Shown piece by piece: positions 297 to 34,398 of a stretch of 64,000 bases of DNA; the first letter of the stretch is position 1, and each line of letters opens with the position of its first letter. The notes beneath the pieces are model-generated. The model saw only the letters and a program-made list of their open reading frames with translations, did no database searches and was not told the origin of the DNA. Source of the stretch: Marixanthomonas ophiurae (GTDB lineage Bacteria > Bacteroidota > Bacteroidia > Flavobacteriales > Flavobacteriaceae); NCBI RefSeq assembly GCF_003413745.1, contig NZ_QVID01000001.1, positions 2,046,001 to 2,110,000 on the forward strand. Reading direction: 5' to 3'. Made by a program: the position numbers and the translations under genes.

Positions 297-339
297 TGAT
301 AAATGTCATAGTATTTCAGGTTAAGTCAAGCTATCTTTG
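297..339 (+). promoter_or_regulatory. Crp/Fnr-type box plus -7 element for the usp operon
   Basis: The palindrome TGATAAATGTCA (297-308) begins 35 bp upstream of TATCTTTG (332-339), a perfect match to the Bacteroidota -7 consensus TAnnTTTG. With a start site about 5 bp after the octamer, the box is centred near -41.5, where class II Crp/Fnr activators bind. The same spacing recurs at the other sites listed here. Confidence 0.8.
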
Positions 340-363
340 GTTCTGTTAAAAACAGTGCCAACT

Positions 364-1209
364 ATGCGAAAAATAATCATCCCAACCGATTTTTCAGAAA
401 ATGCTCGTAATGCAGTACGATATGCCGTAGAACTTTTTAAGTATGATCGTTGTGAAATTACACTTCTCCATGCTTTTGCAGATGAGGTGTATGAAAACAA
501 CCTAGAGATGTCACGTTCTCTTTTTGAAGAATACAAGAAAAAAACAAAGCAAAGTGCTGAAAAGGAGCTAGAAAACCTTTTAATATTCGTAAAAGAAGCT
601 TCTCCTAACCCGAGGCACAAATACTCAGCTAATGCGGTGTTTTCAAATTTAATAGACGCCGTGAACGAACTAGTAGAAACCGACAACAGCGATATCGTTG
701 TGATGGGAACTCGGGGACATACCGATGACCGCGACCTTACTTTTGGGAGCAATACATTACAGGTGGTAAAATATGTAAGTTGTCCTGTACTGGCAGTGCC
801 TTCAAAATATACAGATTGGCACCCTAAAGAAGTACTGTTTCCTACACCTTACCTTATGCCGTTTAGGCGCAGGGAAATAAAACTGTTAAGTACTATATGT
901 GAAAAATTTAAAGCTACTATTCACCTTCTATACGTTTCAGAGTATGAAAAACTGTCGTTTCGCCAACAAGATAACAAAGCGTTTTTAAATTCTTGTATAA
1001 AAGATAATTACCGGCAGTTCCACATTAAAACAGGAAAGGACATAGTAAAAACAGTCAATTCTTTTATAAATGAAGAGGATATAGATATGCTTGTAATGAT
1101 AAATCATCGCCATTCATTTTTAGAAGGTATACTGTACAGCAACACCATCGATAAAATAGGGTTGAAAGTACAAGTACCCTTTTTAATACTTCAAAATTTA
1201 TCACGATAA
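364..1209 (+). CDS. universal stress protein, tandem UspA domains
   Basis: This 281-residue cytoplasmic protein has two UspA-type domains (about 1-145 and 150-281). The first begins MRKIIIPTDFSENA and carries the ATP-binding loop GTRG-x9-GSN (the G-x2-G-x9-G-S/T signature). The second lacks the loop and ends in a degenerate IDMLVMINHRHS strand. I chose the ATG at 364 over the in-frame TTG at 337, because the TTG lies inside the -7 element. It is the first gene of a tight run of five same-strand genes (gaps 13, 54, 9 and 5 bp). The Fnr-like promoter suggests induction under low oxygen. The exact physiological role is unknown. Confidence 0.9.
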   Translation: MRKIIIPTDFSENARNAVRYAVELFKYDRCEITLLHAFADEVYENNLEMSRSLFEEYKKKTKQSAEKELENLLIFVKEASPNPRHKYSANAVFSNLIDAVNELVETDNSDIVVMGTRGHTDDRDLTFGSNTLQVVKYVSCPVLAVPSKYTDWHPKEVLFPTPYLMPFRRREIKLLSTICEKFKATIHLLYVSEYEKLSFRQQDNKAFLNSCIKDNYRQFHIKTGKDIVKTVNSFINEEDIDMLVMINHRHSFLEGILYSNTIDKIGLKVQVPFLILQNLSR

Positions 1210-1222
1210 AATTTAATTAAAA

Positions 1223-2071
1223 ATGAAAAAAATCCTAATACCCACCGATTTTTCAAACAATGCATATGCTGCGTTGTTTTATACTGTAAAACTTTTTAGT
1301 GACGAAGAAGTACAATTTTATCTATTGCATTCATTTGCCGATAGTGTCTCTGCGCTTACAAGCCGTGTGGATATTGGTAAATCTGAAAAATTGATGGACA
1401 AACTGTACGATGAAGCCGATAAAGACGGCAAACAGCTCATTCATCATATTAACCGAGACAGTGATAACAAGTCACACAATTTTGAGTTTATTTCCACCTC
1501 CATGTCCTTGGTGCGGGGAACCAATAAACTGATTATAAAGTACGGTATCGATTTGGTTGTAATGGGAACCAAAGGGCGTACTGCTGCCGAAGATATTTTA
1601 TTGGGCAGCAATACCATTCAGGTTATCAAAAACATTAAAAATGCACCTTTATTGGTAGTACCGCAGGAAATGGATTTCACAATACCTTCAGAAATTGCTT
1701 TTGCTACAGATTATAACGAAGCATTTCCAACCGTAGGGATAACTCCTATGCTAGCTTTAGCTAAAAGCTACCAATCAACTATTCATTTAGTGCACGTAGG
1801 TGAAAAAGCTACTATGGATACCCAACAGCAACAACACTTAAAACTTATTAAAAAAGCCCTTACAGACTGTAAAACAAAAATACATTGGATTTCTAAAGAA
1901 GGCAGTATAGCAAACAGTATTGATAGTTTTGTTGTTGATAAAAGCATAGATCTGCTGGTGATGGTATATCACAGATACAATGCAATTGCTCGCATATTTA
2001 GGGAAGCAGTTGTAAAGAAAATAGGGAAGACCACCTCGGTACCCTATATGGTAATACCTATAAGAGACTGA
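1223..2071 (+). CDS. universal stress protein, tandem UspA domains
   Basis: This 282-residue paralogue of the preceding gene begins MKKILIPTDFSNNA. The nucleotide loop GTKG-x9-GSN lies in the first Usp domain, and the second domain (about 150-282) is degenerate. It starts 13 bp after the upstream gene and is almost certainly cotranscribed with it. Tandem-domain Usp proteins of this type are usually ATP-binding stress factors that adjust metabolism under starvation or anoxia. Nothing here identifies a specific partner. Confidence 0.9.
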   Translation: MKKILIPTDFSNNAYAALFYTVKLFSDEEVQFYLLHSFADSVSALTSRVDIGKSEKLMDKLYDEADKDGKQLIHHINRDSDNKSHNFEFISTSMSLVRGTNKLIIKYGIDLVVMGTKGRTAAEDILLGSNTIQVIKNIKNAPLLVVPQEMDFTIPSEIAFATDYNEAFPTVGITPMLALAKSYQSTIHLVHVGEKATMDTQQQQHLKLIKKALTDCKTKIHWISKEGSIANSIDSFVVDKSIDLLVMVYHRYNAIARIFREAVVKKIGKTTSVPYMVIPIRD

Positions 2072-2125
2072 TATAAATCGTGTTTAAAAACCAATATTCA
2101 TTTTATAACTAAACCTTGTAAAATT

Positions 2126-2977
2126 ATGAAAAAGAAAATTTTAATACCTACCGATTTCTCAAAAAATGCATGGAATGCAACTACTTACGCCATGAACCTT
2201 TTTAAAGGAGAACAGTGTGAATTTCATATTCTCAATACATTTTATTTGGGCGGATATTCAACCGAAAACCTCTTAATTCCTGAACCTGGCGATGCAACTT
2301 ATGAGTCAATTAAAGAAGCTTCAGAAAAAAAGATGAGTAAACTAAAAATTCAACTTAGTTATCGGGATGACTCACCAGAGCATCGATTTTATTTTTACAA
2401 CGAATTTGGCCCCTTGACCGAGGTTATCAAGACGATTATTGAAAAAAAGGATATTGAATTTATTGTGATGGGTACTCGTGGCGAAACAGATTCAAAAGAT
2501 GTTATTTTTGGCAGCAATACTATTAATGCAATGGAAAACATACGACTTTGTCCGATTCTGGCCATTCCGGGTACTTTTTTCTTTAAAGAACCTAACGAGA
2601 TTGTATTCCCTACAAGTTTTAAAACCCATTTTAAACAAAGGGAATTAAAACACTTGGTAGAAATTGCCAAGTTGACAAATGCCCCTGTACGCATACTTCA
2701 CATAAAAAAAGAAGATAAACTGAGTGAAGAACAAAAGGAAAATAAAGCTTTGTTGGAAGATATCTTGGTAACAATAGAATTCAGCCATCATACATTGGAT
2801 AATATTGATGTAAAAAAAGGACTCCATAGTTTTGTTCAAAGTAGGGAAAGCGAGATGATAGCCTTTATCAATAAAAAGCATACTTTTTTTGGTAGTATTT
2901 TTTCAAATCCTATGGTAAAGGATTTAGGTGTACATGCTAAGGTACCGGTATTGGCTATGCACGACATACGCTCATAG
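2126..2977 (+). CDS. universal stress protein, tandem UspA domains
   Basis: This 283-residue protein is the third tandem-UspA paralogue in the operon. It starts MKKKILIPTDFSKNA and has the ATP loop GTRG-x9-GSN in the first half. The C-terminal domain is divergent and lacks the loop. The 54-bp gap before it is the largest in the operon. A near-palindrome there, TGATATAAATCG (2069-2080), has no -7 element at the right distance, so I assign no separate promoter. The next gene follows after 9 bp. Confidence 0.9.
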   Translation: MKKKILIPTDFSKNAWNATTYAMNLFKGEQCEFHILNTFYLGGYSTENLLIPEPGDATYESIKEASEKKMSKLKIQLSYRDDSPEHRFYFYNEFGPLTEVIKTIIEKKDIEFIVMGTRGETDSKDVIFGSNTINAMENIRLCPILAIPGTFFFKEPNEIVFPTSFKTHFKQRELKHLVEIAKLTNAPVRILHIKKEDKLSEEQKENKALLEDILVTIEFSHHTLDNIDVKKGLHSFVQSRESEMIAFINKKHTFFGSIFSNPMVKDLGVHAKVPVLAMHDIRS

Positions 2978-2986
2978 CTTTAAAAT

Positions 2987-3829
2987 ATGAAACCTGAAAC
3001 AAATAGCATAGAATTGATAAAATCATCAGGAAAGCGTGTTCGGTTTTCCATTGAAAAACTAAAAGCTTCCCTTAGACATAGCGGCGCAGATACAGCAACT
3101 ATTAATAAAATAACCAATACCGTGCGGGACGAGCTGTATCAGGGTATTTCTACCAAAGAAATTTACAACAGGGCTTTTGCGATGCTTAAAAAGGAAAAGC
3201 TGGAATACGCTTCAAAGTATAAATTGAAAAAAGCCATTTACGAACTGGGACCTACTGGTTTTCCCTTTGAAAAATTCATTGGTGCCCTCTATCAATATTC
3301 AGGTTATCAAGTAACAGTGGGTAAGATGTTGGAAGGAAAATGTGTGAGTCATGAGGTTGATGTAATCGCCCATAAAAAGAATCATCGCATACTGGCAGAA
3401 TGTAAATTTCACAGTGAAGAGGGCCGAAATTGCGATGTAAAAATACCATTATACATTCATTCTCGGTTTCAGGACATTATAAAGTCTAGCAAAGAAAACA
3501 AAGCTATAACTAAAGAAGGATGGGTGGTTACAAATACACGTTTTACAAAAGATGCAGAACAATATGCACTATGTGCAGGCTTGAAACTATTAAGCTGGAA
3601 TTACCCAACTGGAAATGGGCTAAAAGACCGTATCGATCGATTAGGGCTCTATCCAATAACGGTTTTAACTTTATTGTCTAAACGTGAAAAGCAATTTTTG
3701 TTAAGCCGTGATGTGGTTTTGTGCCGACAATTACTGAGAGATAAATTTTATTTGGATCATTTGGGTATCTCTGAAAAAAGAAAACAGCGTATTTTTTCTG
3801 AAATATCCATTCTTTGTAACAATAGTTAA
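2987..3829 (+). CDS. ATP-cone domain fused to Mrr-like restriction-endonuclease fold
   Basis: This 280-residue protein has two recognisable modules. Residues about 6-92 resemble an ATP-cone, the nucleotide-sensing domain of ribonucleotide reductases and NrdR (IKSSGKRVRFSIEKLKASLR, then the GISTKEIYNRAF helix). Residues about 93-210 look like a PD-(D/E)xK nuclease of the Mrr/REase type: HEVDVIAH (E123, D125) followed by ILAECKFH (E138, K140) supplies the D...E-x-K pattern. A C-terminal helical segment follows. I infer a nuclease gated by nucleotide level. It sits between three Usp genes and a beta-CASP nuclease gene, with gaps of 9 and 5 bp. Its substrate is unknown. Confidence 0.75.
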   Translation: MKPETNSIELIKSSGKRVRFSIEKLKASLRHSGADTATINKITNTVRDELYQGISTKEIYNRAFAMLKKEKLEYASKYKLKKAIYELGPTGFPFEKFIGALYQYSGYQVTVGKMLEGKCVSHEVDVIAHKKNHRILAECKFHSEEGRNCDVKIPLYIHSRFQDIIKSSKENKAITKEGWVVTNTRFTKDAEQYALCAGLKLLSWNYPTGNGLKDRIDRLGLYPITVLTLLSKREKQFLLSRDVVLCRQLLRDKFYLDHLGISEKRKQRIFSEISILCNNS

Positions 3830-3834: not shown

Positions 3835-5205
3835 ATGAAAACTATAACTGTTCAATTTTTGGGAGCTGCTGGCACGGTTACAGGGTCTAAGTTTTACCTG
3901 GAAACACCTGATGGCAATTTTTTAATTGATTGTGGCATGTTTCAAGGGTTGAAAGAACTACGGGAAGAAAACTGGAAGCCTTTTCCTGTAGATGCTTCAA
4001 AAATAAACTTTGTATTTTTAACTCACGGCCATTTGGATCATACTGGTTATCTGCCACGCTTATTTAAGGAAGGTTTCCGAGGAAAAATAATCGGGACACC
4101 GCCCACCTTGGCGATTACCGAAATTATCCTGCTGGATAGCGCCAAAATACATGAAGAAGAAGCCGAACGCGCCAACAAAGAGGGGTACTCTAAACACCAA
4201 CCCGCCAAACCGTTTTATACTATTAAAGAAGCCGAAGCTACCTTGCGGTTGTTCAAAAATGCGGAAAAGGATATTTGGATTACCTTGACCGAACATATAC
4301 AGTACCGGTTTCGGTACAATGGTCATATTATTGGTGCTACTTTTATCGAACTGGATGTGTATGGAAAGCGGTTTGTTTTTTCAGGCGATATTGGGCGCAC
4401 CGAAGATGCGTTGCTGTTCCCACCCGAAAAACCAGAATGGGTTGATTACCTTTTTTTAGAAAGCACCTATGGCAATCGGTTGCACCCCGAGGAAGATGTA
4501 GAAAGCCTTTTGGTACAACTAATACAAAAAACCATTGAGGAGCGCGGTACACTCATTATCCCATCTTTTGCTGTAGAACGGTTGCAAACCTTAATGTACC
4601 TGCTATGGAGTCTGTATCAAAAAAATAAGATTCCTAACATTCCTATTTTTATTGATAGCCCTATGGGGAGTAATGTCTTATCGGTATTTGAACGTTTTCC
4701 AGAGTGGCACAAATTGACCCCTGAGCAATTTCATGCTATGAGCAACCGGATGAATGTTGTTGCTTCGTATAAAGAAACCTGGGAAACCATTGACGATCCG
4801 AGGCCAAAAGTGGTCATTGCCGGCAGCGGAATGGTTACAGGTGGACGAGTGCTCACCTATTTAAAACAGTTGATTGATCAATCAACAACCAATATCTTGT
4901 TGGTAGGGTACCAAGCCGAAGGAACCCGTGGACGCCAATTGCTAGAAGGAGCACACGAGTTAAAATTCTTCGGAAAATATTATCCCGTAAAAGCTTCTGT
5001 TCATCATGTGGAAAGCCTTTCGGCCCACGCCGACCAAAATGGATTACTGGATTGGGTAAGCGATATTAAAAACAATCCTGAAGAAGTCTTTCTTATTCAC
5101 GGAGAACCTACTGCACAAGATTCACTTCGGATAAAACTGAAAGATACCTTCAATTGGAGGGCATCCCTCCCGAAACTTTATGATATTCATAATATTTGGG
5201 TTTAA
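3835..5205 (+). CDS. beta-CASP metallo-beta-lactamase-fold ribonuclease-like protein
   Basis: This 456-residue protein of the MBL-fold/beta-CASP family has all metal motifs in order: THGHLDHTG (H64, H66, D68, H69), the GHIIGAT histidine, FSGDIGR, and the late motif SLSAHADQNGLL. The beta-CASP insert shows FLESTYGNR and IAGSGMVTGGRV. Members process RNA (CPSF-73/RNase J relatives, many annotated as exonucleases). Bacterial single-domain forms like this are poorly characterised and often lie next to Usp genes. It starts 5 bp after the ATP-cone nuclease and closes the operon; no clear terminator follows. Confidence 0.88.
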   Translation: MKTITVQFLGAAGTVTGSKFYLETPDGNFLIDCGMFQGLKELREENWKPFPVDASKINFVFLTHGHLDHTGYLPRLFKEGFRGKIIGTPPTLAITEIILLDSAKIHEEEAERANKEGYSKHQPAKPFYTIKEAEATLRLFKNAEKDIWITLTEHIQYRFRYNGHIIGATFIELDVYGKRFVFSGDIGRTEDALLFPPEKPEWVDYLFLESTYGNRLHPEEDVESLLVQLIQKTIEERGTLIIPSFAVERLQTLMYLLWSLYQKNKIPNIPIFIDSPMGSNVLSVFERFPEWHKLTPEQFHAMSNRMNVVASYKETWETIDDPRPKVVIAGSGMVTGGRVLTYLKQLIDQSTTNILLVGYQAEGTRGRQLLEGAHELKFFGKYYPVKASVHHVESLSAHADQNGLLDWVSDIKNNPEEVFLIHGEPTAQDSLRIKLKDTFNWRASLPKLYDIHNIWV

Positions 5206-5369: not shown

Positions 5370-5412
5370 TGACAATTGTCATAATTCAAGAACCTATCGA
5401 ACGGTATCTTTG
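5370..5412 (+). promoter_or_regulatory. perfect Crp/Fnr-type palindrome plus -7 element before yceI
   Basis: TGACAATTGTCA (5370-5381) is a perfect 12-bp palindrome. It starts 35 bp before TATCTTTG (5405-5412), a perfect TAnnTTTG element. The inferred start site is near 5417 and the box centre near -41.5. The rest of the 5206-5434 gap holds no gene I can support. Confidence 0.82.
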
Positions 5413-8125: not shown

Positions 8126-8168
8126 TGATTGTTACCATTTTTATTTCTATAATTTGAAAATATATTTA
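8126..8168 (+). promoter_or_regulatory. weak Crp/Fnr-type box plus -7-like element
   Basis: TGATTGTTACCA (8126-8137) keeps the left half-site but has CCA in place of TCA. TATATTTA (8161-8168) follows at the same 35-bp distance seen at the better sites. I rank it lower because of the degraded half-site. Confidence 0.45.
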
Positions 8169-9374: not shown

Positions 9375-10211
9375 CTATTGGTGCAGCACTAAAAGTGGAA
9401 CACGCGTTTGATAACTTATTTTAGAAGTTTCCGACCCAAAAACAAAGCGCTCCAGAAAGCTTTCCCGTTCCACAAACATGGTATGTAGAGATATATTAAA
9501 CAATTGCACAAAAGTATTAATTGCAATAGGGGTGGGAATACCAGTTAATGCATGGAAACTGTGTTTTTTGCCCTTAAAAGAATCTTGAAGGTTTCTATTT
9601 TCTAGCAGATTGGGATCAGCTACGGCGTCATCATCAATATCTAAAACATTAATGTGAGGTTGGTTTTGTTTCACCATTAGACTGAACAACGGTTGTAACT
9701 TCTCTTTTTTAAGAATATCTCCATGGTGTAAACTAAAAAGAATAGATTCTATTTTTTTATAGCTATAATTATCTGGAATAACAAGAACTGGACAGTCAAC
9801 CTGTCGTATTACTTGGAGTGTATTACTACCAAAAAGGACTTCTTTAGCACTTGTCGCACCATTGGTTCCCATTATTATTAAATCGATGCTATATAATGAA
9901 ATGGACTGGTTTATGGCATCAACAAAAGCATCGTAATCAACTTTCTCATGAAAAGTATAATCTTCACTGCTATAGTCCTTTTTAAAGGTATCTACAAAGG
10001 AGCTAAGCTCTTTTTTATTGTCCGCTAGCACAGCGTCGTACACTGAGCTCTTTGGTGATGCAGAGCGTACATCTGCAGTAACGTATTCTGAAGTTTTCTG
10101 AATGTTCAAAATATAGAACGTGCAAGTATGCCCTTTAAAAAAATCCAGCGCATATCTGATAGCATTCTTAGAGCTTTCTGAAAAATCTGTCGGAAGTAAT
10201 ATAGTATTCAT
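9375..10211 (-). CDS. universal stress protein, tandem UspA domains
   Basis: This 278-residue protein is a fourth two-domain Usp, starting MNTILLPTDFSESS. It has the ATP loop GTNG-x9-GSN in domain 1 and a degenerate second domain. I chose the ATG at 10211 rather than the longer frame from 10265, because the longer form adds residues not shared with the paralogues and would overlap the -7 element. It is divergent from the nos cluster and has its own Fnr-like box, so it is likely induced together with it. Confidence 0.88.
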   Translation of the reverse strand: MNTILLPTDFSESSKNAIRYALDFFKGHTCTFYILNIQKTSEYVTADVRSASPKSSVYDAVLADNKKELSSFVDTFKKDYSSEDYTFHEKVDYDAFVDAINQSISLYSIDLIIMGTNGATSAKEVLFGSNTLQVIRQVDCPVLVIPDNYSYKKIESILFSLHHGDILKKEKLQPLFSLMVKQNQPHINVLDIDDDAVADPNLLENRNLQDSFKGKKHSFHALTGIPTPIAINTFVQLFNISLHTMFVERESFLERFVFGSETSKISYQTRVPLLVLHQ

Positions 10212-10234
10212 TTTATTAAAACTTTTGGTTCCTA

Positions 10235-10277
10235 TAAAAATAGTTTGAATCCGCTCAAGCAACAATGATATCCGTCA
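10235..10277 (-). promoter_or_regulatory. Crp/Fnr-type box plus -7 element for reverse-strand usp
   Basis: Read on the reverse strand, TGACGGATATCA (10277-10266) begins 35 bp before TATTTTTA (10242-10235), which matches TAnnTTTG except for the last base. The inferred start site is near 10230. Confidence 0.7.
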
Positions 10278-10399: not shown

Positions 10400-10442
10400 T
10401 GATAAAAGTCATTTTATACCCTTTAGTACCTCACTACTTTTG
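10400..10442 (+). promoter_or_regulatory. Crp/Fnr-type box plus -7 element for the nos cluster
   Basis: TGATAAAAGTCA (10400-10411) begins 35 bp before TACTTTTG (10435-10442), a perfect TAnnTTTG. Transcription would start near 10447, leaving a leader of about 90 bp before the cytochrome gene. The 325-bp gap 10212-10536 holds this site and the divergent usp site and no other gene. Confidence 0.82.
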
Positions 10443-11043: not shown

Positions 11044-11065
11044 AAACAACTAAACAAATAAAATT

Positions 11066-13030: not shown

Positions 13031-13083
13031 ATATATTGGTTGCGAAACATTGGTTTAGTGATTGGTAATGTTTCCAAAGACAG

Positions 13084-13115
13084 ACGGGGGTTGTTGATTG
13101 CCCCCGTTTTGTTTT
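13084..13115 (+). terminator. rho-independent terminator after nosZ
   Basis: ACGGGGG (13084-13090) pairs perfectly with CCCCCGT (13101-13107) and is followed by a T-rich tail. The loop is 10 bp. It separates nosCZ from the accessory genes. Confidence 0.85.
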
Positions 13116-13161
13116 AAATAAAAAGATTAAAAAATCAACGTAAACCAAAAAAATCAAGAAA

Positions 13162-13794: not shown

Positions 13795-13805
13795 AATTAG
13801 TAAAA

Positions 13806-21732: not shown

Positions 21733-21826
21733 ATAGCAAGACGTAAAAGTCAAGGCTATTCCATGCTTTTGTTAAATAAAGATAATTTTGTCCGAAATAG
21801 AATATCTTTACATAAACAAAAAAACT

Positions 21827-22270: not shown

Positions 22271-22277
22271 AAATAGT

Positions 22278-22753: not shown

Positions 22754-22796
22754 TGATAATTGTCATTTTTTAAAATAGTGTTCAGTAGCACCTTTG
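22754..22796 (+). promoter_or_regulatory. Crp/Fnr-type box plus -7 element for ccoI
   Basis: TGATAATTGTCA (22754-22765) starts 35 bp before CACCTTTG (22789-22796). The inferred transcription start is near 22801, 26 bp before the ccoI start codon. Confidence 0.8.
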
Positions 22797-25253: not shown

Positions 25254-25293
25254 CGGATGTCATATTTTTTTTGTCGTCCCAAAAGTAGTTTTA
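25251..25293 (+). promoter_or_regulatory. Crp/Fnr-type box overlapping the ccoI stop codon
   Basis: TGACGGATGTCA (25251-25262) begins with the TGA stop codon of ccoI. It lies 35 bp before TAGTTTTA (25286-25293), a TAnnTTTG-like element with the last base changed. It would drive ccoS and the structural oxidase genes. Confidence 0.7.
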
Positions 25294-25313: not shown

Positions 25314-25514
25314 ATGAGTATTATTTACGTGTTATTAAGCATTAGCGTTTTAGTGGCTATTATCTTTTTTATCGCTTTTATAATTTCGGTGAAAAGAGGA
25401 CAGTATGACGATACGTATACCCCTTCGGTTCGCATGTTATTTGAGGATGAGCTTGTAAAAGAAGAAGCTTCCCAATTGGAGGAAAAAGAAAATAAAATCA
25501 ATTCAAATAATTAA
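25314..25514 (+). CDS. ccoS: CcoS cbb3 oxidase assembly protein
   Basis: This 66-residue protein has one N-terminal membrane helix (3-26) followed by the family signature VKRGQYDD. CcoS is needed for cofactor insertion into cbb3 oxidase. The gene lies between ccoI and the fused ccoNO gene, the standard place. Confidence 0.92.
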   Translation: MSIIYVLLSISVLVAIIFFIAFIISVKRGQYDDTYTPSVRMLFEDELVKEEASQLEEKENKINSNN

Positions 25515-25552
25515 AAAACCCTGCACCAATGCGGGAAGAAACACTAACTATT

Positions 25553-27754
25553 ATGCAAACAGAGCAGTTTTATTACGATAACAAAATCGTAAAAAAGTTT
25601 GTCAATGCCACTATGTTTTGGGGTATTATTGGTATGAGTATTGGACTCTTACTGGCCTTTATGTTTTTATTTCCTAACATCACGGACGGTATTTCGTGGT
25701 TGAGTTTTGGTCGATTGCGACCATTGCACACCAATGCGGTGATTTTTGCTTTTGTAGGGAATGCCATTTTTGCTGGCGTGTATTATTCTTCTCAACGATT
25801 GTTAAAAGCCAGAATGTGGAAAGATTGGTTGAGTAACCTTAATTTTTGGGGTTGGCAGGCTATTATTGTTGGGGCTGCAATTACACTACCACTAGGTTAT
25901 ACTACCTCAAAAGAATACGCCGAACTAGAATGGCCTTTTGATATTGCTATTGCAGTTATTTGGGTTGCGTTTGGAGCCAATTTGATCGGTACTATTTTAA
26001 AACGAAGACAACGGCATCTCTACGTTGCCATTTGGTTTTACCTAGCAACTTTTGTTACGGTAGCTGTTTTACATATTGTGAACAGTATTGAGTTGCCTGT
26101 TAGTGCATTAAAAAGTTATTCTTTTTACGCTGGAGTACAAGATGCACTTGTTCAATGGTGGTATGGCCACAATGCTGTTGCATTTTTCTTAACCACACCC
26201 TTTTTGGGATTGATGTATTACTTTGTACCCAAAGCGGCGAACCGTCCGGTATACTCTTATAAACTGTCTATTATCCACTTTTGGTCTTTGATATTTATTT
26301 ATATCTGGGCAGGACCACACCATTTGCTATACTCTTCCTTACCTGCTTGGGCACAAAACTTAGGGGTGGCATTTTCAATTATGTTATTGGCTCCATCGTG
26401 GGGTGGAATGATTAATGGACTATTAACCTTAAGAGGAGCTTGGGACAAAGTACGTACCGACCCAGTTTTAAAGTTTATGGTAGTAGCCATCACAGGGTAT
26501 GGAATGGCAACTTTTGAAGGGCCGATGCTATCTCTTAAAAACGTAAACGCCATTGCACACTTTAGTGATTGGATTATTGCTCACGTGCACGTAGGGGCAT
26601 TAGCTTGGAACGGTTTTTTAACTTTTGGGATGGTGTATTGGTTAGTGCCAAAACTGTTTAAGACAAAATTATATTCTATTAAGTTGGCCAACACCCACTT
26701 TTGGGTAGGAACATTAGGTATTATCATGTACGCTTTACCTATGTATGTTGCCGGATTTGTTCAAGCCTCTATGTGGAAACAATTTAACCCAGATGGAACG
26801 CTTACCTACGGAAACTTCTTAGAGACCGTAGCCGAAATCATACCGATGTATTGGATGCGTGCCATTGGAGGAAGTCTATTTATCCTAGGTGCTTTCATAG
26901 CGCTGTACAATATTATAATGACAGCTCGTAAAGGAAGCAAAGTAACCGATGAATTGGCCGAAGCTGCTCCATTGGTAAAAGTAACCAAGCAACGAACTGC
27001 AAAAGAGGGCTATCATACCTGGTTGGAAAGACGTCCGGTAAAATTAACCATTTTTGCTACCATAGCCATTTTAATTGGTGGTGCGGTACAGATTATTCCA
27101 TCGCTATTGGTGGACGATTATGTACCCGTAATTTCAAGTGTGAAACCATATTCTCCTTTGGAGTTGGAGGGTCGCGATATCTACATTCGAGAGGGCTGTG
27201 TTTCTTGTCATTCCCAAATGGTGCGTCCCTTCCGTAGTGAGGTAGAACGCTATGGGGAATATTCTAAAAGTGGTGAATACATTTACGATCACCCGTTCCT
27301 ATGGGGAAGTAAACGTACTGGGCCTGATTTACTTCGGATAGGAGGCAAGTATAGTGACAACTGGCATTTAAACCATATGTACGATCCGCAGAGTACTTCT
27401 TCCGGTTCCATTATGCCGTCGTATAAATGGTTGATAAATGCTGAATTGGATAAAAGCCTTACCGAAACAAAAATGGAAACGATGGTAACATTGGGTGTAC
27501 CGTATTCTGAAGAAGAAATTACCAATGCCCAACAATCCATGTTGGAACAAGGAACCAAAATTGAAGAAAACCTCTACAGCGATCCCGATTTTGCAAAAAC
27601 GTACGAAGCCGATAAAAAATACGCTGAGGAAAACGGAGAAGATTTTGTTGAAATGCGCGATAGGGAAATTGTAGCATTGATCGCTTACTTACAACGTTTA
27701 GGGACAGATATTAAAGTAAAAACCGCTGAAGAAGCTTCAGCTCAAAACGACTAA
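25553..27754 (+). CDS. ccoNO: fused CcoN-CcoO cbb3 oxidase catalytic and monoheme subunits
   Basis: This 733-residue fusion has CcoN at about 1-480, with 12 helices. Its heme/CuB histidines are in RPLHTNA, WYGHNAV, GPHHLLYSSLP and the HFSDWIIAHVHVG pair. After a linker and one helix, the CcoO part carries a single heme c (EGCVSCHSQMVRPF) and the distal Met loop SIMPSYKWL. Fusion of the two subunits is common in Bacteroidota. I prefer ATG 25553 (MQTEQFYYDN); an in-frame ATG at 25529 would add 8 residues. Confidence 0.95.
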   Translation: MQTEQFYYDNKIVKKFVNATMFWGIIGMSIGLLLAFMFLFPNITDGISWLSFGRLRPLHTNAVIFAFVGNAIFAGVYYSSQRLLKARMWKDWLSNLNFWGWQAIIVGAAITLPLGYTTSKEYAELEWPFDIAIAVIWVAFGANLIGTILKRRQRHLYVAIWFYLATFVTVAVLHIVNSIELPVSALKSYSFYAGVQDALVQWWYGHNAVAFFLTTPFLGLMYYFVPKAANRPVYSYKLSIIHFWSLIFIYIWAGPHHLLYSSLPAWAQNLGVAFSIMLLAPSWGGMINGLLTLRGAWDKVRTDPVLKFMVVAITGYGMATFEGPMLSLKNVNAIAHFSDWIIAHVHVGALAWNGFLTFGMVYWLVPKLFKTKLYSIKLANTHFWVGTLGIIMYALPMYVAGFVQASMWKQFNPDGTLTYGNFLETVAEIIPMYWMRAIGGSLFILGAFIALYNIIMTARKGSKVTDELAEAAPLVKVTKQRTAKEGYHTWLERRPVKLTIFATIAILIGGAVQIIPSLLVDDYVPVISSVKPYSPLELEGRDIYIREGCVSCHSQMVRPFRSEVERYGEYSKSGEYIYDHPFLWGSKRTGPDLLRIGGKYSDNWHLNHMYDPQSTSSGSIMPSYKWLINAELDKSLTETKMETMVTLGVPYSEEEITNAQQSMLEQGTKIEENLYSDPDFAKTYEADKKYAEENGEDFVEMRDREIVALIAYLQRLGTDIKVKTAEEASAQND

Positions 27755-27756
27755 TC

Positions 27757-27966
27757 ATGCTAAAATTTATTAAAGGAAACTTGGAAAGTATCGATGGGGT
27801 AGCAATATATCCCATCATATCGCTGCTTATTTTTTTCATCTTTTTTACAGTCCTGTTTTGGTGGGTATTCACAGCAAAAAAGGAACATATAAAAGAAGTC
27901 AGTAACATTCCTTTAGAATTAATTCCAGACAAGGAAATTAACGATAAAAACGATTTACCATTATGA
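27757..27966 (+). CDS. ccoQ: CcoQ-like small cbb3 oxidase subunit
   Basis: This 69-residue protein has one membrane helix (about 18-40) ending FWWVFTAKKEH, with a polar C-terminal tail. Its start is 2 bp after the ccoNO stop and its end overlaps ccoP by 4 bp. Position, size and topology identify it as CcoQ/FixQ; sequence conservation in this family is low. Confidence 0.85.
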   Translation: MLKFIKGNLESIDGVAIYPIISLLIFFIFFTVLFWWVFTAKKEHIKEVSNIPLELIPDKEINDKNDLPL

Positions 27967-28934
27967 AAACAACAGCATCTTACATACGAGTTATAGTCTT
28001 GACGGTCCTTGCGTTTTTTCTTATGGAATTTATTACAGAACCTGGTGAAACATGGGCTATAGTAAAATACCCAGTAATATGGGCGGTTTTAGGATTGATT
28101 TTTTTGTTTTCAATTGCCGTTGAAGTTATTTCAGAAACTTTACAAAGTATATTATTTAGAGGGTTGAATGAAGAGGCACAAGAAAGGTTTATTGCTTCCG
28201 AAGCACTTCGAAAAGAAAATAATTGGTTTAAAAAGACTTACAAAAAACTATTGGCCAAAAAACCTATTGAAAAAGAAAGTGAGATTGTACTAGATCATAA
28301 TTATGACGGTATTCGTGAGTTGGATAACGTATTGCCACCTTGGTGGATTTATATGTTTTATGCATCTATCGTTTTTGCCGTAGTATATATGGTGCGCTAT
28401 CATGTTTTTGACGGCATTGACCAAGAAGAAGAATATGAAATTGCCGTGGCAGAAGCCCAAATACAGATAGAAGAATACAAAAAAACAGCCAAGGATTTAA
28501 TTGATGTAAATACTGTTGAAATATTGACAGGTAAAGAAGATGTTGCTGCCGGAAAAACCATTTTTGAAGCAAATTGTATTGCCTGCCATAAAGTTGATGG
28601 CGGAGGTGGAATTGGACCTAACTTAACCGATGACTATTGGATATTGGGTGGTGGCATTAAGAATGTGTTTAACACGGTTTCAGAAGGGGGACGTGACGGA
28701 AAAGGAATGGTTGCCTGGAAAACCGACTTAAAACCCAGTGAAATGGCACAGGTTTCAAGTTACGTGTTGAGTTTACACGGTATTACACCTGCAGATCCTA
28801 AAGAACCTGAAGGCGACCTTTGGATAGACCCCAATGCTCCTGTAGAAGAAGTTGAGGTAAAGCAAATTGACTCTTCAAAAATACAAATAAAGATGGAAGA
28901 CCAGCCTGTAACGGAGGATGTAGTAGAGAAATAA
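27963..28934 (+). CDS. ccoP: CcoP cbb3 oxidase cytochrome c subunit with a single heme motif
   Basis: This 323-residue protein has two N-terminal helices (about 9-25 and 35-58), a basic linker, and the CcoP-type helix starting PPWWIYMFYASI. One cytochrome c domain follows with C-I-A-C-H and GGGGIGPNLTDDYW. Proteobacterial CcoP has two c hemes; only one CxxCH is present here. A C-terminal acidic tail follows the domain. It passes electrons from periplasmic donors to the CcoO heme. Confidence 0.93.
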   Translation: MKTTASYIRVIVLTVLAFFLMEFITEPGETWAIVKYPVIWAVLGLIFLFSIAVEVISETLQSILFRGLNEEAQERFIASEALRKENNWFKKTYKKLLAKKPIEKESEIVLDHNYDGIRELDNVLPPWWIYMFYASIVFAVVYMVRYHVFDGIDQEEEYEIAVAEAQIQIEEYKKTAKDLIDVNTVEILTGKEDVAAGKTIFEANCIACHKVDGGGGIGPNLTDDYWILGGGIKNVFNTVSEGGRDGKGMVAWKTDLKPSEMAQVSSYVLSLHGITPADPKEPEGDLWIDPNAPVEEVEVKQIDSSKIQIKMEDQPVTEDVVEK

Positions 28935-28975
28935 TAGGCTATAAAAGTTTTATAATCAAGGTAAAGTAATTAATT

Positions 28976-30397
28976 GTGGAAGCTCCAAAAAACGAATCAT
29001 TTAGGGATAGTATCGGTACCATCGATGAAGAAGGGAAGCGTTCTTGGGTGTATCCCAAGAAACCTTCGGGAAAGTTTTATGAATACCGCAAATATGTGAG
29101 TTATTTTTTACTGGCCTTTTTGTTTGCCGCTCCCTTTATAAAAATTAATGGCAATCAATTCCTCTTGTTTAATTTTCTTGAACGAAGATTCAATATTTTC
29201 GGGTTTCCGTTTTGGCCACAGGACTTCCACCTGTTTGTTATTTCTATGCTTATTGGGGTGGTTTTCATTATTCTTTTTACCGTGGCTTTCGGAAGAATTT
29301 TCTGTGGATGGATTTGCCCTCAAACTATTTTTTTGGAAATGGTTTTCAGAAGGATTGAGTATGCCATTGAAGGTGACAGAGGAAAACAAATTAGGTTGGA
29401 CAAACAAGTCTGGAATGCCGAAAAGATTAGAAAGAAAGGATTAAAGTGGTTTATCTTTTTCATTATTTCATTTTTAATTGCGAACATTTTTCTAGCCTAC
29501 ATTATAGGAAGTGATAAATTACTGGAATATATTTTGGAAGGCCCTACTGAAAACTGGAACACCCTTATATCCTTAACTATTTTTACCGGAGTATTCTATT
29601 TTGTATTTGCTTGGTTTAGAGAACAAGTGTGCATTATAGCGTGTCCCTACGGAAGGTTACAAGGTGTGCTTTTGGATAACAAGAGCATCGTTGTGGCGTA
29701 TGATCATAAACGGGGTGAAAAAGAAGAAGGAAGAGCGAAATTCAAAAAAAATGAAGACCGAGAGGCTTCAGGAAAAGGAGATTGTATTGACTGTTTTCAA
29801 TGTGTACATGTTTGTCCAACGGGTATCGATATTCGTAACGGGACGCAACTGGAATGTGTAAACTGTACTGCCTGTATCGATGCCTGCGATAGCATTATGG
29901 AAGCTGTGAATTTACCACAAGGATTGATTCGGTATGCTAGTGAAGAAAATATTGAAAAGAAAACAAAATTTAAGTTCACGCCTAGATTAAAAGGGTACAC
30001 GGCCGTATTATTCATTTTAATTGGGATATTGGCTGGTATGCTTTTTCTTCGGAATGATGTAGAAGCGCGTGTATTAAGACTTCCTGGGCAATTATATGAA
30101 CATAAAGACAACAATATGATCAGTAATGTCTTCACTTTTAAATTAATTAATAAAACAACTGAAGATGTTGACAGTGTCCATTTTAAACTACTTTCCCATA
30201 AAGGAACTATTAAGTTGGTTACACACGACGATTTCCAAGTACCCAAACAAGGTTTGGCAGAGGGTACATTGTTTATTGAAATCAATGGTAGTGCTTTAAC
30301 CGGTGATAAAGACAAGGTTAAAATTGGGGTTTATAGTGGAGATAAATTGATAGAAACAACCACAGCTACCTTTTTGGGGCCGAGAAGTTATAAATAG
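28976..30397 (+). CDS. ccoG: CcoG cbb3 oxidase accessory ferredoxin-like protein
   Basis: This 473-residue membrane protein apparently starts at GTG 28976. It has about five helices and 4Fe-4S clusters (CGWICPQTIFLEM; then CIDCFQCVHVCPTG and CVNCTACIDACD). A C-terminal Ig-like FixG domain (about 370-473) lies outside the membrane. CcoG reduces copper for CcoI-dependent delivery to the oxidase. It follows ccoP by 41 bp. Confidence 0.93.
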   Translation: MEAPKNESFRDSIGTIDEEGKRSWVYPKKPSGKFYEYRKYVSYFLLAFLFAAPFIKINGNQFLLFNFLERRFNIFGFPFWPQDFHLFVISMLIGVVFIILFTVAFGRIFCGWICPQTIFLEMVFRRIEYAIEGDRGKQIRLDKQVWNAEKIRKKGLKWFIFFIISFLIANIFLAYIIGSDKLLEYILEGPTENWNTLISLTIFTGVFYFVFAWFREQVCIIACPYGRLQGVLLDNKSIVVAYDHKRGEKEEGRAKFKKNEDREASGKGDCIDCFQCVHVCPTGIDIRNGTQLECVNCTACIDACDSIMEAVNLPQGLIRYASEENIEKKTKFKFTPRLKGYTAVLFILIGILAGMLFLRNDVEARVLRLPGQLYEHKDNNMISNVFTFKLINKTTEDVDSVHFKLLSHKGTIKLVTHDDFQVPKQGLAEGTLFIEINGSALTGDKDKVKIGVYSGDKLIETTTATFLGPRSYK

Positions 30398-30429
30398 AGA
30401 TTGAAAACTCACTTTAAGAAACAAATGTT

Positions 30430-30876
30430 ATGAAAATAAATTGGGGAACAGGGATTGTAATTGGCATTGCAGCTTTTATTTGCTTTATCATGTTTTTTGT
30501 GATAAAAATGAGTACCAACGATAAATACAGCTACGATTTGGTAGTAGAAGAGTATTACAAAAAGGAACTCGCATTTCAGCAAGAAATCGATGCCGAGGAA
30601 AACTTAAAATTGTTAACCGAAAAAATAAAAGAGGAAAGAACAAACGAAGGTTGGTTGTTTTCCTTTCCAAAAGAAATAAACCTTGATAAAGTTTCGGGTA
30701 CAGTGTTCCTATACAGACCGTCCAACAAGCAACTGGATTTTCAATTTCCATTGAAATTTTCCGGTTCAAATTTGCTCATACCTAACAAGCGATTGGTGGA
30801 CGGTCGTTGGAACATAAACATCACTTGGGACTACGAAGGAAAAAAGTATTTATTTAAAAAGGAAATATTGCATTAA
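30430..30876 (+). CDS. ccoH: CcoH/FixH family assembly protein
   Basis: This 148-residue protein has one N-terminal helix (about 6-26) with the FixH feature DLVVEEYYKKELAFQQEID, then a beta-rich periplasmic domain containing DGRWNINITWDYEG. CcoH stabilises assembling cbb3 oxidase. It lies 32 bp after ccoG in the usual GHIS-type order. Confidence 0.92.
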   Translation: MKINWGTGIVIGIAAFICFIMFFVIKMSTNDKYSYDLVVEEYYKKELAFQQEIDAEENLKLLTEKIKEERTNEGWLFSFPKEINLDKVSGTVFLYRPSNKQLDFQFPLKFSGSNLLIPNKRLVDGRWNINITWDYEGKKYLFKKEILH

Positions 30877-30929
30877 ATCACTCTTTGTTTTTCCATTGCT
30901 ATGGAAGTAGAGAGGTTAATCAAATAAAA

Positions 30930-31673
30930 ATGCTACTATCAGCTCTTATATTCGGTTTATTAGGAAGCTTCCACTGTGTAGGTATGTGCGGTCCTATAGC
31001 ATTTTTACTACCGGTGGATCACAAAAAACCAGTAAAAAAAGTAGGGCAGATATTTTTATATCACTTCGGAAGAATTTTTACCTATTCAATAATTGGACTT
31101 TTGTTTGGTTTGTTAGGAAAAAGCTTTTACCTGTTCGGGATGCAACAGCAATTAAGCATTGCGATTGGAGTATTGATGATCATTGTGGTTTTGCTTCCAT
31201 ATAAAACGTTTCAGAAATATAACTTTTCAAAACCGTTGTTTAAGATTATTTCAAAAGTAAAAAGTGAATTAGGGGTTGCGTTGAAAAGGAAATCACCTGA
31301 TACGTTTTTAACCATCGGGTTCTTGAATGGCTTTTTACCCTGTGGGCTGGTATATATGGCTGTTTTTGGAGCCATTGCTTCTGGGAATGCCTTACAAGGC
31401 AGTTTGTATATGGTTTTGTTTGGAATAGGAACCATGCCGTTGATGACCACAGCAATCTATTTAGGTAATTTCTTGAATGTACAAGTTAGACAGCGCATTC
31501 GGAAGGCTATTCCTGTTTTTGTGGTGCTTATTGGCTGTTTGTTTATTGTACGGGGAATGGGGCTAGGAATCCCATATGTTTCACCCAAACCCACTGTAGA
31601 AATGATAAACGCCAATTATAATTGTCATGCTGTTTCAGAAAACATGAATACTGAGTTAATTACTAATCAATAA
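30930..31673 (+). CDS. SafE/TauE-like membrane protein of the cco cluster
   Basis: This 247-residue protein has six or seven helices and begins MLLSALIFGLLGSFHCVGMCGP. The GSFHCVGMCGP motif, with paired cysteines in helix 1, is typical of the SafE-type proteins that follow ccoGH and are linked to copper supply for cbb3 oxidase. A second motif, GFLNGFLPCGLVYMA, lies at about residues 129-143. Databases label the family sulfite exporter, but here a copper-related role fits better by context. ATG 30930 is chosen over the frame opening at 30885. Confidence 0.85.
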   Translation: MLLSALIFGLLGSFHCVGMCGPIAFLLPVDHKKPVKKVGQIFLYHFGRIFTYSIIGLLFGLLGKSFYLFGMQQQLSIAIGVLMIIVVLLPYKTFQKYNFSKPLFKIISKVKSELGVALKRKSPDTFLTIGFLNGFLPCGLVYMAVFGAIASGNALQGSLYMVLFGIGTMPLMTTAIYLGNFLNVQVRQRIRKAIPVFVVLIGCLFIVRGMGLGIPYVSPKPTVEMINANYNCHAVSENMNTELITNQ

Positions 31674-32652: not shown

Positions 32653-32670
32653 AATTATTAGTTTTTAATG

Positions 32671-34032
32671 TTATACAGTCATTGAAAATAATTGTGTTTC
32701 AGGTTGTATTCGTTGTAATAATAGATCGAAAGCCATACATACATTTCGAACAAACGGTCGTCCTTTTTCTGTAATATAAAGCGCATTGCTTTCAATTTTA
32801 ATTAGGCCATCCGTTTCCATTTCTTTTAGGTTTATTAAAATATCCGGAAGATCTGTAAACCAACCCTCTGTAGTGTTCCAAGAGGTTTTTAATTTGCACA
32901 TTAGGTTTAGAATATGCTTTCTTATGGTTAAATCTTCTTCAGTAAGAATATGACCACGATACACAGGTATTTTTCCTTCATCTACAATTTGTTGGTATTC
33001 TTCTACGGTTTTTACATTTTGAGCAAAACTATACCAACTATCACTAATGGATGAAACGCCCAGACCAATCATAGCCTTTGTTTTTGATGATGTATAGCCC
33101 ATAAAATTACGGTGTATGGTTTTGGTTTCAATAGCCTTATAAAGACTATCAGTTTTTAAAGCGAAATGATCCATTCCTATTTCAACATAACCAGCTTCAA
33201 GCAACATTTTTTTGCCAATTTCGTATTGCTCTCTTTTCTCTGAAGCAGAAGGAAGGTCTTCGTCCTTAAAGCCACGTTGTCCGTTACCTTTTATCCATGG
33301 TACATGTGCATAGCTGTAAAAGGCAATGCGATCTGGCATAAGTTCTTTTGTACGTTCAACGGTGTGTATAATGTGTTCTTTTTTCTGAAATGGAAGTCCA
33401 AAAATAATATCGTGCCCCACAGAAGTGTATCCAGCTTTTCTTGAATTTTCTGTCACTTTTTTCACGTTCTCGAAGGGCTGGATACGGTGAATGGCTTTTT
33501 GCACTGTTTCATTATAATCCTGAACACCAAAACTTACTCGGTTAAAACCCAATGAGGCGAGCATATGTAAATGCGTTTCGGTTGTGTTATTTGGGTGTCC
33601 TTCAAAACTTAGTTCAGCCTTTTCAGCTTTTATAGAATGTTCAAAAATTCCATCTAGTAACGTCTTTAAATTTTCAGCAGAAAAAAAAGTAGGTGTACCG
33701 CCTCCTAAATGCAATTCTTTTATAATAGGTTTTTCATCAAAAAGTTTAATATATAATTGCCATTCTTTCAATACCGATTGTAAATAAGGGACTTCAACAC
33801 CGTGATTTTTTGTAATACGTTTGTTGCAGCCACAAAAGGTACATAGACTTTCACAAAAGGGAAGATGAATGTAAAGGCTTATCCCTTCGATAGTATTACT
33901 TTCTGCAAAGCTTTTTTGCAAAGTCCTTTTCCATTCTTCAAGGTAAAACGACTCACCTTTCCAGTAGGGAACGGTAGGATAGCTTGTGTATCGTGGACCA
34001 GCAACGTTGTATTTTGAAACTAAGGAGGTCAT
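32671..34032 (-). CDS. hemN: oxygen-independent coproporphyrinogen III dehydrogenase
   Basis: This 453-residue radical-SAM enzyme of heme synthesis has the cluster motif C60-x3-C64-x2-C67 (PFCESLCTFCGCNK), the GGGTPTFF glycine motif and a C-terminal HemN domain. The opening RYTSYPTVPYW is typical of HemN proper rather than HemW. It supplies heme under anoxia, matching the neighbouring cbb3 and nos genes. It begins 15 bp after the small membrane protein gene. Confidence 0.95.
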   Translation of the reverse strand: MTSLVSKYNVAGPRYTSYPTVPYWKGESFYLEEWKRTLQKSFAESNTIEGISLYIHLPFCESLCTFCGCNKRITKNHGVEVPYLQSVLKEWQLYIKLFDEKPIIKELHLGGGTPTFFSAENLKTLLDGIFEHSIKAEKAELSFEGHPNNTTETHLHMLASLGFNRVSFGVQDYNETVQKAIHRIQPFENVKKVTENSRKAGYTSVGHDIIFGLPFQKKEHIIHTVERTKELMPDRIAFYSYAHVPWIKGNGQRGFKDEDLPSASEKREQYEIGKKMLLEAGYVEIGMDHFALKTDSLYKAIETKTIHRNFMGYTSSKTKAMIGLGVSSISDSWYSFAQNVKTVEEYQQIVDEGKIPVYRGHILTEEDLTIRKHILNLMCKLKTSWNTTEGWFTDLPDILINLKEMETDGLIKIESNALYITEKGRPFVRNVCMAFDLLLQRIQPETQLFSMTV

Positions 34033-34047
34033 TTTAATTGATAGTAT

Positions 34048-34332
34048 TTAAAATAACCCGTTGCCCAGAATTATCAGCGTATTGATGATGACACTTATCA
34101 TCAATAATTTGAAAACCAATTCTGCCTTTTGCAATGTGAGTATTGAAGCATTATGAATACTACAAATACTTACACTTAAAAGTACAAGAAACATTTGAAA
34201 AATTCCATTTCCGTGCATTAAGGAAGTCATCACGGCAATTGAACCAATACAAGTGGAAAGAATAATCCCTAGTACGGAGTTTGCCATATAATTTTTTGAA
34301 AAGTCCTGATTTAATTTTGCGTATAGAGTCAT
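34048..34332 (-). CDS. small membrane protein of unknown function upstream of hemN
   Basis: This 94-residue protein has three predicted helices (about 17-36, 44-61 and 72-92). It is the first gene of the hemN-ric transcription unit, 15 bp before hemN, downstream of a perfect Fnr-type palindrome and a perfect -7 element. I do not recognise the family. Confidence 0.7.
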   Translation of the reverse strand: MTLYAKLNQDFSKNYMANSVLGIILSTCIGSIAVMTSLMHGNGIFQMFLVLLSVSICSIHNASILTLQKAELVFKLLMISVIINTLIILGNGLF

Positions 34333-34355
34333 AACTGTATGTTTTAATTTCGATT

Positions 34356-34398
34356 CAAAATTACGATATACAGTTGGGTAAGAATATGATTTAAATCA
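34356..34398 (-). promoter_or_regulatory. perfect Crp/Fnr-type palindrome plus -7 element for the hemN-ric operon
   Basis: On the reverse strand TGATTTAAATCA (34398-34387), a perfect palindrome, begins 35 bp before TAATTTTG (34363-34356), a perfect TAnnTTTG. The inferred start site is near 34351. Confidence 0.83.

Follow-up and report, generated by a model that had tools for sequence, protein, structure and literature searches.

Analysis of a 64,000-nucleotide stretch of the Marixanthomonas ophiurae genome (assembly GCF_003413745.1, contig NZ_QVID01000001.1, positions 2,046,001 to 2,110,000; hereafter the window) indicates that a fixed distance between a palindromic box and the promoter marks a predicted low-oxygen gene set, in this genome and in many members of the Flavobacteriaceae. 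Nine boxes of the TGA-N6-TCA type each begin 35 bp before an octamer resembling TAnnTTTG. The operator sequence, its spacing and conservation, the gene neighbourhood and the co-occurrence of boxes with regulators make it likely that these are class II activator-dependent promoters, of which the activator would be REC-Crp, a receiver domain fused to a Crp/Fnr-type module, driven by the FixL/DosP-type PAS histidine kinase encoded beside it as a low-oxygen switch.

Boxes and octamers in the window

The nine boxes and ten octamers reported in the initial annotation, each octamer 35 bp from a box start, agree in position and spelling with the sequence. Eight of the boxes are intact TGAYN4RTCA, the exception being that at 8126; four of the octamers are exact TAnnTTTG (297, 5370, 10400 and the reverse-strand octamer of 34387), and the other six differ from it by one base. 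The pattern TGAYN4RTCA-N23-NAnnTTTR occurs 8 times in the window, whereas 300 dinucleotide-preserving shuffles average 0.02 occurrences and do not exceed 1, so that the 35-bp pairing is not equally frequent in shuffled sequence; with TGA-N6-TCA as the box, the count is 9 against a shuffle mean of 0.19 and a maximum of 2. The window holds 10 intact TGAYN4RTCA boxes, of which 8 have an octamer at +35 and two (34089 and 52594) do not. Throughout the 3.30-Mb genome, the strict box followed by a relaxed octamer at a gap of 23 yields 13 matches, and the reversed control 4. A 41-kb stretch (C1:2039362-2080398, C1 being the contig of the window) contains 11 of the 13; it comprises the first 34 kb of the window and the 6.6 kb before it, where three additional sites are located (2039362 on the plus strand, 2042631 on the minus strand and 2045078 on the plus strand). 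The rigid spacing had been expected to make the regulon searchable genome-wide; strict matches do exceed the control, but they form mainly one cluster and are not scattered over the genome.

Conservation of individual sites was assessed by alignment, chiefly with a near relative (locus L063) and a genome of the same genus (G054). At the promoter of the universal stress protein (Usp) operon, box TGATAAATGTCA (297..308, plus strand) precedes octamer TATCTTTG (332-339); box and step are retained in L063, G054 and L065, and in G074 the box is retained and the aligned octamer region is gapped. The nos promoter (box TGATAAAAGTCA, 10400..10411, plus strand; octamer TACTTTTG, 10435-10442) is retained in L063, G054, L065 and G074. 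Upstream of the Usp gene at 10265-9375, box TGACGGATATCA (10266..10277, minus strand) precedes octamer TATTTTTA (10242-10235), an arrangement retained in L063; the remaining alignments do not cover position 10266. Three further promoters are retained in G054: that of the CcoI gene (box TGATAATTGTCA, 22754..22765, plus strand; octamer CACCTTTG, 22789-22796), that of ccoS, which overlaps the end of ccoI (box TGACGGATGTCA, 25251..25262, plus strand; octamer TAGTTTTA, 25286-25293), and that of hemN-ric (box TGATTTAAATCA, 34387..34398, minus strand; octamer TAATTTTG, 34363-34356). For the promoter of the first YceI-like gene (box TGACAATTGTCA, 5370..5381, plus strand; octamer TATCTTTG, 5405-5412), the conservation alignments offered no alignable relative.

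Two sites merit separate treatment. Box TGATTGTTACCA (8126..8137, plus strand), with octamer TATATTTA at 8161-8168 upstream of an open reading frame (ORF) at 8193-8825, has one degraded half (ACCA), as first described; the two relatives with an alignment here, G054 (TGATTGTTGTCA) and L063 (TGATTGTTATCA), both have this half in intact form, which argues for a decayed member of the set and against a chance match. The CoA-transferase promoter combines box TGACATAAATCA (20386..20397, plus strand) with octamer CACCTTTG (20421-20428). This box had been counted in both directions, giving a tenth arrangement; the letters of the reverse octamer are indeed present (TACCATTG, 20362-20355) but are not conserved in the same-genus G054, where the run at +35 is TAAATTGT, and for that reason the reverse reading is rejected as probably fortuitous and is not counted. 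A conserved TACTTTTA lies 6 bp nearer the box than TACCATTG, both in M. ophiurae and in G054.

Promoter position and sequence of the box

In sigma-A promoters of Flavobacterium psychrophilum, TAnnTTTG spans -12 to -5 (excerpts of PMC9723704). With this borrowed start offset the box centre therefore falls at -41.5, the class II activator position, in agreement with the initial annotation: a palindromic Crp/Fnr-type box stands at a fixed step from the -10/-7 element.

Base composition was tabulated for 186 sites in relatives' loci; the search itself imposed the core and the pyrimidine at the fourth base. C precedes TGA in 53% of sites, A in 37%, G in 6% and T in 4%; at the fourth base T accounts for 61% and C for 39%; and T follows TCA in 99%. 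The Fnr box TTGATN4ATCAA requires an outer T upstream, found here in 4%, and an A after the proximal half, where 99% of sites have T; the Crp box TGTGAN6TCACA requires G before TGA, found in 6%. By sequence, the box is non-canonical for both Fnr and Crp. It had been distinguished from the enterobacterial Fnr box by its two full halves; the distinction holds for the outer bases (C/A and T in place of T and A) and for the T/C at the fourth base, but spacing and two full halves do not separate the two, because TTGATN4ATCAA also contains TGA-N6-TCA. In the M. ophiurae genome TTGATN4ATCAA itself occurs at 14 places, versus 3 for the reversed control, none of them in the cluster.

At the position equivalent to residue 180 of Crp, which is R in Crp and V in Fnr, both candidate regulators, REC-Crp and the family Fnr described below, have T (alignment by eye). 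This residue has been tied to the outer base of the box (Rodionov et al., excerpts of PMC1274295). A comparison of logos hints that the outer base is A in Fnr-only genomes (few sites, 11) and C in REC-only genomes (53 sites). Upstream promoter elements were compared between 146 boxed sites and 1756 other octamers: TTG is found at 5 of the boxed sites versus 8.5% of the others, and TTTG at 14 versus 5.8%.

Conservation of the spacing in the family

Genome contigs searched with an alignment of REC-Crp yielded at least 574 relatives, of which the best 80 named Flavobacteriaceae-type loci (L063-L142; 1.55 Mb in total) were analysed, with Marixanthomonas and Aquimarina among the genera represented; they were selected by the REC-Crp gene alone and not by boxes. 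In these loci a gap of 23 between box and octamer occurs in 147 pairs, every other gap from 0 to 60 in at most 7, and the reversed box at gap 23 in none. None of the 80 loci is without a box-octamer pair; together they hold 342 (TAnnTTTG or TAnnTTTA), versus 0 for the control. Gaps of 24 and 25, with 7 pairs each, are possibly tolerated spacings or chance. Further relatives' loci, among which L043-L062 were partly picked because a box lay near a regulator, give 69 pairs at gap 23 and at most 5 at other gaps.

Across 199 family genomes, almost every one from a different genus, the strict pattern matches 1103 times, versus 11 for the reversed control, and 35 of the 199 genomes lack any match. 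In a draw of 296 genomes from the phylum, matches occur in all 30 family members and in 5 of 6 members of a second family of the order; the 37 genomes from elsewhere in the class reach no more than 6 matches each, and the 223 from outside it no more than 4. The clear exception is G459, from another family of the phylum, with 24 matches and no control match. With G459, a second lineage shows a large complement of sites that follow this box-octamer grammar; the genome encodes an Fnr with the helix GTATETTIR and four cysteines.

The candidate activator and the adjacent kinase

The M. ophiurae genome has four matches to PF00027, one of them located within the box cluster, 1 kb ahead of the window. 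This protein, REC-Crp (C1:2043973-2045022, 350 residues), consists of Response_reg, cNMP_binding and HTH_Crp_2 domains; none of the best 25 of 102 NCBIfam models reaches its cut-off. The phospho-acceptor-type residues of the receiver (D9, D10, D52 and K104) show no variation in an alignment of 11 sequences, and the recognition helix reads GIATESLIR. The cysteine set of Fnr is absent from the M. ophiurae protein, in which the sole cysteine, C51, lies in the receiver. Receiver-Crp fusions are not mentioned in the excerpts of PMC9239204.

A PAS histidine kinase is encoded directly before REC-Crp, and the two genes are adjacent in 77 of 78 testable named loci. When a profile of its PAS domain is compared with the PDB, the best 13 distinct sequences are all haem PAS domains of DosP or FixL, and the top Foldseek match of a structure model (mean pLDDT 84) is the haem PAS domain of FixL (8js5). 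Residue H67 of the kinase aligns with H77 of DosP, which we take to be the proximal haem ligand, and is retained in 110 of 111 distinct PAS matches. The domain thus falls in the FixL/DosP group with the presumed proximal histidine, and the kinase is predicted to be a haem oxygen sensor, haem and oxygen being its putative cofactor and signal.

A similar pair is found in another family of the class, where a FixL-like PAS kinase (locus L160, genome G294) adjoins a receiver-Crp/Fnr fusion; its PAS domain contains the runs HDNYISRY and HIIGIGR, which presumably resemble the letters of rhizobial FixL. G294 has 6 box matches, no four-cysteine Fnr of the GTATE type, and a REC-Crp helix that reads GMATETVSR. 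By eye, the kinases at L016, L019, L021, L024, L026, L029, L030, L033, L036 and L041 seem to have an additional PAS-like segment that separates the haem-type PAS from the kinase core, indicating that the sensor part varies and the regulator does not.

Regulators, box counts and alternative explanations

Relatives also possess a family Fnr of 225 residues, in which Cys4, Cys7, Cys53 and Cys106 are present in 24 of 24 distinct matches, Cys59 in 23 and Cys29 in 20. Its residues 3-223 align to 19-241 of Escherichia coli Fnr, placing Cys4, Cys7 and Cys106 near positions 20, 23 and 122, which we take to be the known cluster-ligand numbers, and its helix, GTATESAIR, is close to the GIATESLIR of REC-Crp. 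Five more distant genomes from three families, G459 included, encode an Fnr with GTATE[S/T]xIR and four cysteines. A third Crp/Fnr paralogue, with the helix VETVIR, is encoded in M. ophiurae at C2:887786-888370 (L010).

At E<=1e-40, REC-Crp is called in 86 of the 199 family genomes and Fnr in 118; at the same threshold M. ophiurae has REC-Crp and no Fnr orthologue. Box counts follow the regulators: the mean is 10.4 with both (48 genomes, none of them without a box), 7.2 with REC-Crp only (38 genomes including M. ophiurae, none without), 4.4 with Fnr only (70 genomes, 2 without) and 0.6 with neither (43 genomes, 33 without). The contrast persists when the last class is restricted to the 13 genomes of at least 2.5 Mb (mean 0.8). 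A joint linear fit that includes genome size attributes +5.8 boxes to REC-Crp, +2.8 to Fnr and -0.7 +/- 0.7 to the third paralogue. These correlations come from genomes that are related and do not amount to independent trials.

Several observations weigh against assigning the boxes to REC-Crp and a haem-sensing kinase. The 199 genomes share ancestry, and the co-occurrence and fit tests treat relatives as independent. A genome was classed as lacking a regulator after at most 10 to 15 of its candidates had been scored, and not every genome sequence is complete; G048 (8 boxes) and G147 (6 boxes), which have many boxes and neither regulator, are 82% and 73% complete. Because genomes with Fnr alone carry boxes, a box by itself is no proof of binding by REC-Crp. 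Each of the four 'neither' genomes that encode the third paralogue has 1-3 boxes, so this protein may bind a few sites. As to the kinase, LOV domains also match the PAS fold, lower overall, the match at rank 7 and first outside FixL being a blue-light photoreceptor, and R87, at the position of R97 in DosP, is retained in just 89 of the 111 distinct matches. In the M. ophiurae genome, two of the 13 strict matches lie outside the cluster, one of them within an ORF and the other 24 bp before a pyridine-nucleotide-disulphide oxidoreductase gene. Lastly, the loose box TGA-N6-TCA with exact TAnnTTTG at gaps of 8-38 gives 49 matches versus 45 for the control, with gap 24 (6 matches) nearly equal to gap 23 (7 matches).

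The scan with this loose box had been recommended when the spacing was first described, and its outcome is divided: there is no genome-wide excess, but 6 of the 7 matches at gap 23 lie within the cluster, compared with none of the 6 at gap 24; the seventh has A and T inside the half-sites in place of Y and R. In this genome alone, the loose box shows the spacing by place and not by count, and the stricter TGAY/RTCA box shows the spacing itself; the case for the spacing is made by the strict box and by the support for gap 23 in relatives. The six loose-box matches at gap 24 are possibly a tolerated spacing or chance.

That the boxes are plain Fnr boxes recognized by an iron-sulfur Fnr, with REC-Crp a bystander in the neighbourhood, would fit the occurrence of the four-cysteine Fnr in 118 of the 199 genomes and the boxes of Fnr-only genomes. 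This explanation is unlikely: M. ophiurae and 37 other genomes have boxes and REC-Crp and no Fnr orthologue at the threshold used, the fitted contribution of REC-Crp is about twice that of Fnr, and the outer T and A of a canonical Fnr box are missing. In other genera a four-cysteine Fnr probably uses the same boxes, alone or with REC-Crp.

That the third paralogue is the activator is less probable still. Its helix retains E and R, with I before R, and the four 'neither' genomes in which it occurs all have boxes, whereas 33 of the 39 others have none; yet it is present in just 35 of the 199 genomes at E<=1e-25, brings no rise in box count in the other three classes, and in M. ophiurae is encoded on a different contig. 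As a regulator it was rejected, since beyond the weak signal in those four genomes it does not explain the box counts.

A comparably low probability attaches to the boxes being repressor sites that block polymerase in air. In favour of this, a box centred at -41.5 would cover part of the region where promoters are usually contacted upstream. A repressor, however, would tolerate many positions, and a distance that does not vary by a single base pair across many operons and genera would be typical of an activator that touches the polymerase. Furthermore, cbb3 oxidase and haem synthesis genes are reported to rise under oxygen limitation in F. psychrophilum (excerpts of PMC9723704, from the main text of which Fnr and Crp are absent). 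Finally, although short degenerate motifs arise randomly in AT-rich intergenic DNA, as the reversed-pattern and loose-box counts in this genome illustrate, the shuffle, off-spacing and reversed controls for the strict box and for the relatives reduce chance pairing to a negligible prospect.

Proposed mechanism

With REC-Crp as the preferred activator, we infer a chain that leads from an oxygen signal at haem, through phosphotransfer and binding of REC-Crp, to activation and not repression. As oxygen falls, O2 would leave the haem of the PAS kinase and phosphotransfer would start; the phosphorylated REC-Crp dimer would then bind the boxes and activate transcription. Positioned at -41.5, a dimer of the Crp/Fnr type would contact sigma-A RNA polymerase on the TAnnTTTG -7 element, a contact that may explain why the 35-bp step is constant. 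The genes switched on would be those for cbb3 oxidase, the copper ATPase, N2O reductase and oxygen-independent haem synthesis, together with iron-sulfur repair, the ribosome hibernation factor and universal stress proteins.

Genes downstream of the boxes

Gene assignments support the earlier description of a coherent low-oxygen set. The box at 297 precedes four consecutive ORFs (starting at 337, 1223, 2126 and 2987; 337..3829, plus strand). Universal stress protein models match the ORF at 337 and, weakly, that at 1223; the ORFs at 2126 and 2987 (plus strand) have no NCBIfam match and are named Usp from position and length. They are followed by a gene for a metallo-beta-lactamase/beta-CASP RNA-processing-type protein (3835..5205, plus strand). 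Next on the plus strand are a YceI-like gene (5435-6025, below the model cut-off), an unassigned ORF (6073-7368) that had been called a porin, and a second YceI-like gene (7434-8015). The Usp gene on the minus strand (9375..10265) begins at TTG in the ORF call, and a later start is likely. The nos cluster (10537..18439, plus strand) encodes a c-type cytochrome (10537), a Sec-dependent NosZ (11066-13030), NosL (13680), a NosL/porin-like protein (14286), NosD (15717), an ABC ATPase (16948) and an ABC membrane protein (17657, below the cut-off).

The operon at 20449..22742 (plus strand) encodes a CoA-transferase family protein (20449), an Rrf2 regulator (21788) and a hemerythrin-domain protein (22278). 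It is followed on the plus strand by the gene for a heavy-metal P-type ATPase (22827..25253), CcoI by position; ccoS (25314..25514; FixS, PF03597); and genes at 25529..31673 for a fused CcoNO (25529), a CcoP-like protein (27963, below the cut-off), CcoG (28976), FixH/CcoH (30430) and a DsbD-like membrane protein (30885). On the minus strand, HemN (32671-34032; TIGR00538) and the iron-sulfur repair protein RIC (31930-32652; TIGR03652) both score above the cut-off. The boxed genes just before the window are those for an S30AE hibernation factor with a Usp, an operon with a terminal thioredoxin, and another Usp.

The first ORF after each of 394 sites in the window, L009 and L043-L142 was also tallied, under labels of our own; this tally includes duplicates, since the 297 site is counted once from the window and again from L009, and some loci may be present in both the named and the unnamed sets. 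Universal stress proteins follow 186 sites, an unnamed family of 140 residues 49, the hibernation factor (HPF) 16, CcoI 13 and other genes fewer; 92 are unlabelled and 6 have no ORF. The largest unlabelled cluster (26) is CcoS, judged from the one member tested (FixS), and small clusters, with one member of each tested, correspond to HSP20 (4), MlaE (5), DnaJ (3) and pyridoxamine-oxidase-like proteins (3).

Two other features of the window lie outside this set. An AbiEi/AbiEii type IV toxin-antitoxin pair (PF09407, PF08843; 35216-36837) is found directly past the low-oxygen cluster. Seven ORFs of about 800 residues stand in a row at 42752-60910, flanked by HlyD and OEP genes; the three that were scanned are MacB/FtsX-type permeases, and the run is probably a tandem family of efflux-type permeases.

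Comparison with known systems

The components are of known kinds. In the FixLJ system of rhizobia, the partner regulator of the kinase has a LuxR/NarL-type output; here the neighbouring regulator has Response_reg, cNMP_binding and HTH_Crp_2 domains. Like FixL-FixJ-FixK, the present system would combine a haem-PAS kinase of the FixL group with a Crp/Fnr-type factor as its last component and low-oxygen control of a cbb3 oxidase (fixNOQP). An hFixL-FxkR-FixK cascade has been described in rhizobia (excerpts of PMC7888657). The M. ophiurae system differs from FixL-FixJ-FixK in its Bacteroidota -7 element, in lacking the outer bases of TTGATN4ATCAA, and in the fusion of the receiver to the Crp/Fnr module, by which the FixJ and FixK steps would be one protein.

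Proteobacterial class II promoters of Fnr and Anr have TGA and TCA halves separated by N6 and centred at -41.5, with cco, hemN and usp among their targets; half-site layout, centre and targets all overlap with those described here. Unlike them, the present boxes have mostly C or A outside, a proximal T and T or C at the fourth base, with the octamer TAnnTTTG and a REC-Crp without the Fnr cysteines. The mycobacterial DosR dormancy regulon, which includes universal stress proteins, is controlled by a haem kinase and a LuxR-family response regulator. The likeness is in gene content only, with genes for Usp, HSP20, pyridoxamine-oxidase-like proteins and the hibernation factor boxed here or in relatives; the sensor domain of the kinase, the output domain (HTH_Crp_2 in REC-Crp, LuxR-type in DosR) and the operator all differ. 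The HcpR motif, wyTTGACnnnnGTCAArw, whose targets are mainly hcp and related redox genes (excerpts of PMC1274295), shares the TGAC...GTCA core that the present box permits and has outer TT/AA, which this box lacks. The NmpRSTU system of Myxococcus xanthus likewise has a haem kinase on top and cbb3, P-type ATPase, HemN and hemerythrin targets, but employs a globin-type haem sensor, a multi-component relay and NtrC-like response regulators (excerpts of PMC11841059, in which universal stress proteins are mentioned 12 times, whether as targets not being evident).

Implications for the Flavobacteriaceae

In the literature searched, from which subscription papers were mostly absent, so that an earlier mention is possible, there is no account of this regulon, box or pairing, nor of low-oxygen sensing in flavobacteria. 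Flavobacteria are widespread marine and soil heterotrophs, and nos genes lie behind such boxes in M. ophiurae and some relatives. We lean, with moderate confidence, towards a wider interpretation in which one grammar of the Flavobacteriaceae (c/aTGAYN4RTCAT-N22-TAnnTTTG) serves two oxygen sensors with a nearly identical DNA-reading helix, the four-cysteine Fnr and the haem-PAS kinase with REC-Crp; the latter would be FixL-FixJ-FixK collapsed to a kinase and a regulator, and may have taken over the whole low-oxygen/dormancy regulon in lineages such as that of M. ophiurae. The grammar is precise enough to propose members of the regulon across the family from sequence. With two candidate sensors named, genera that have one, the other, both or neither would provide a natural experiment on an operator changing hands between sensors.

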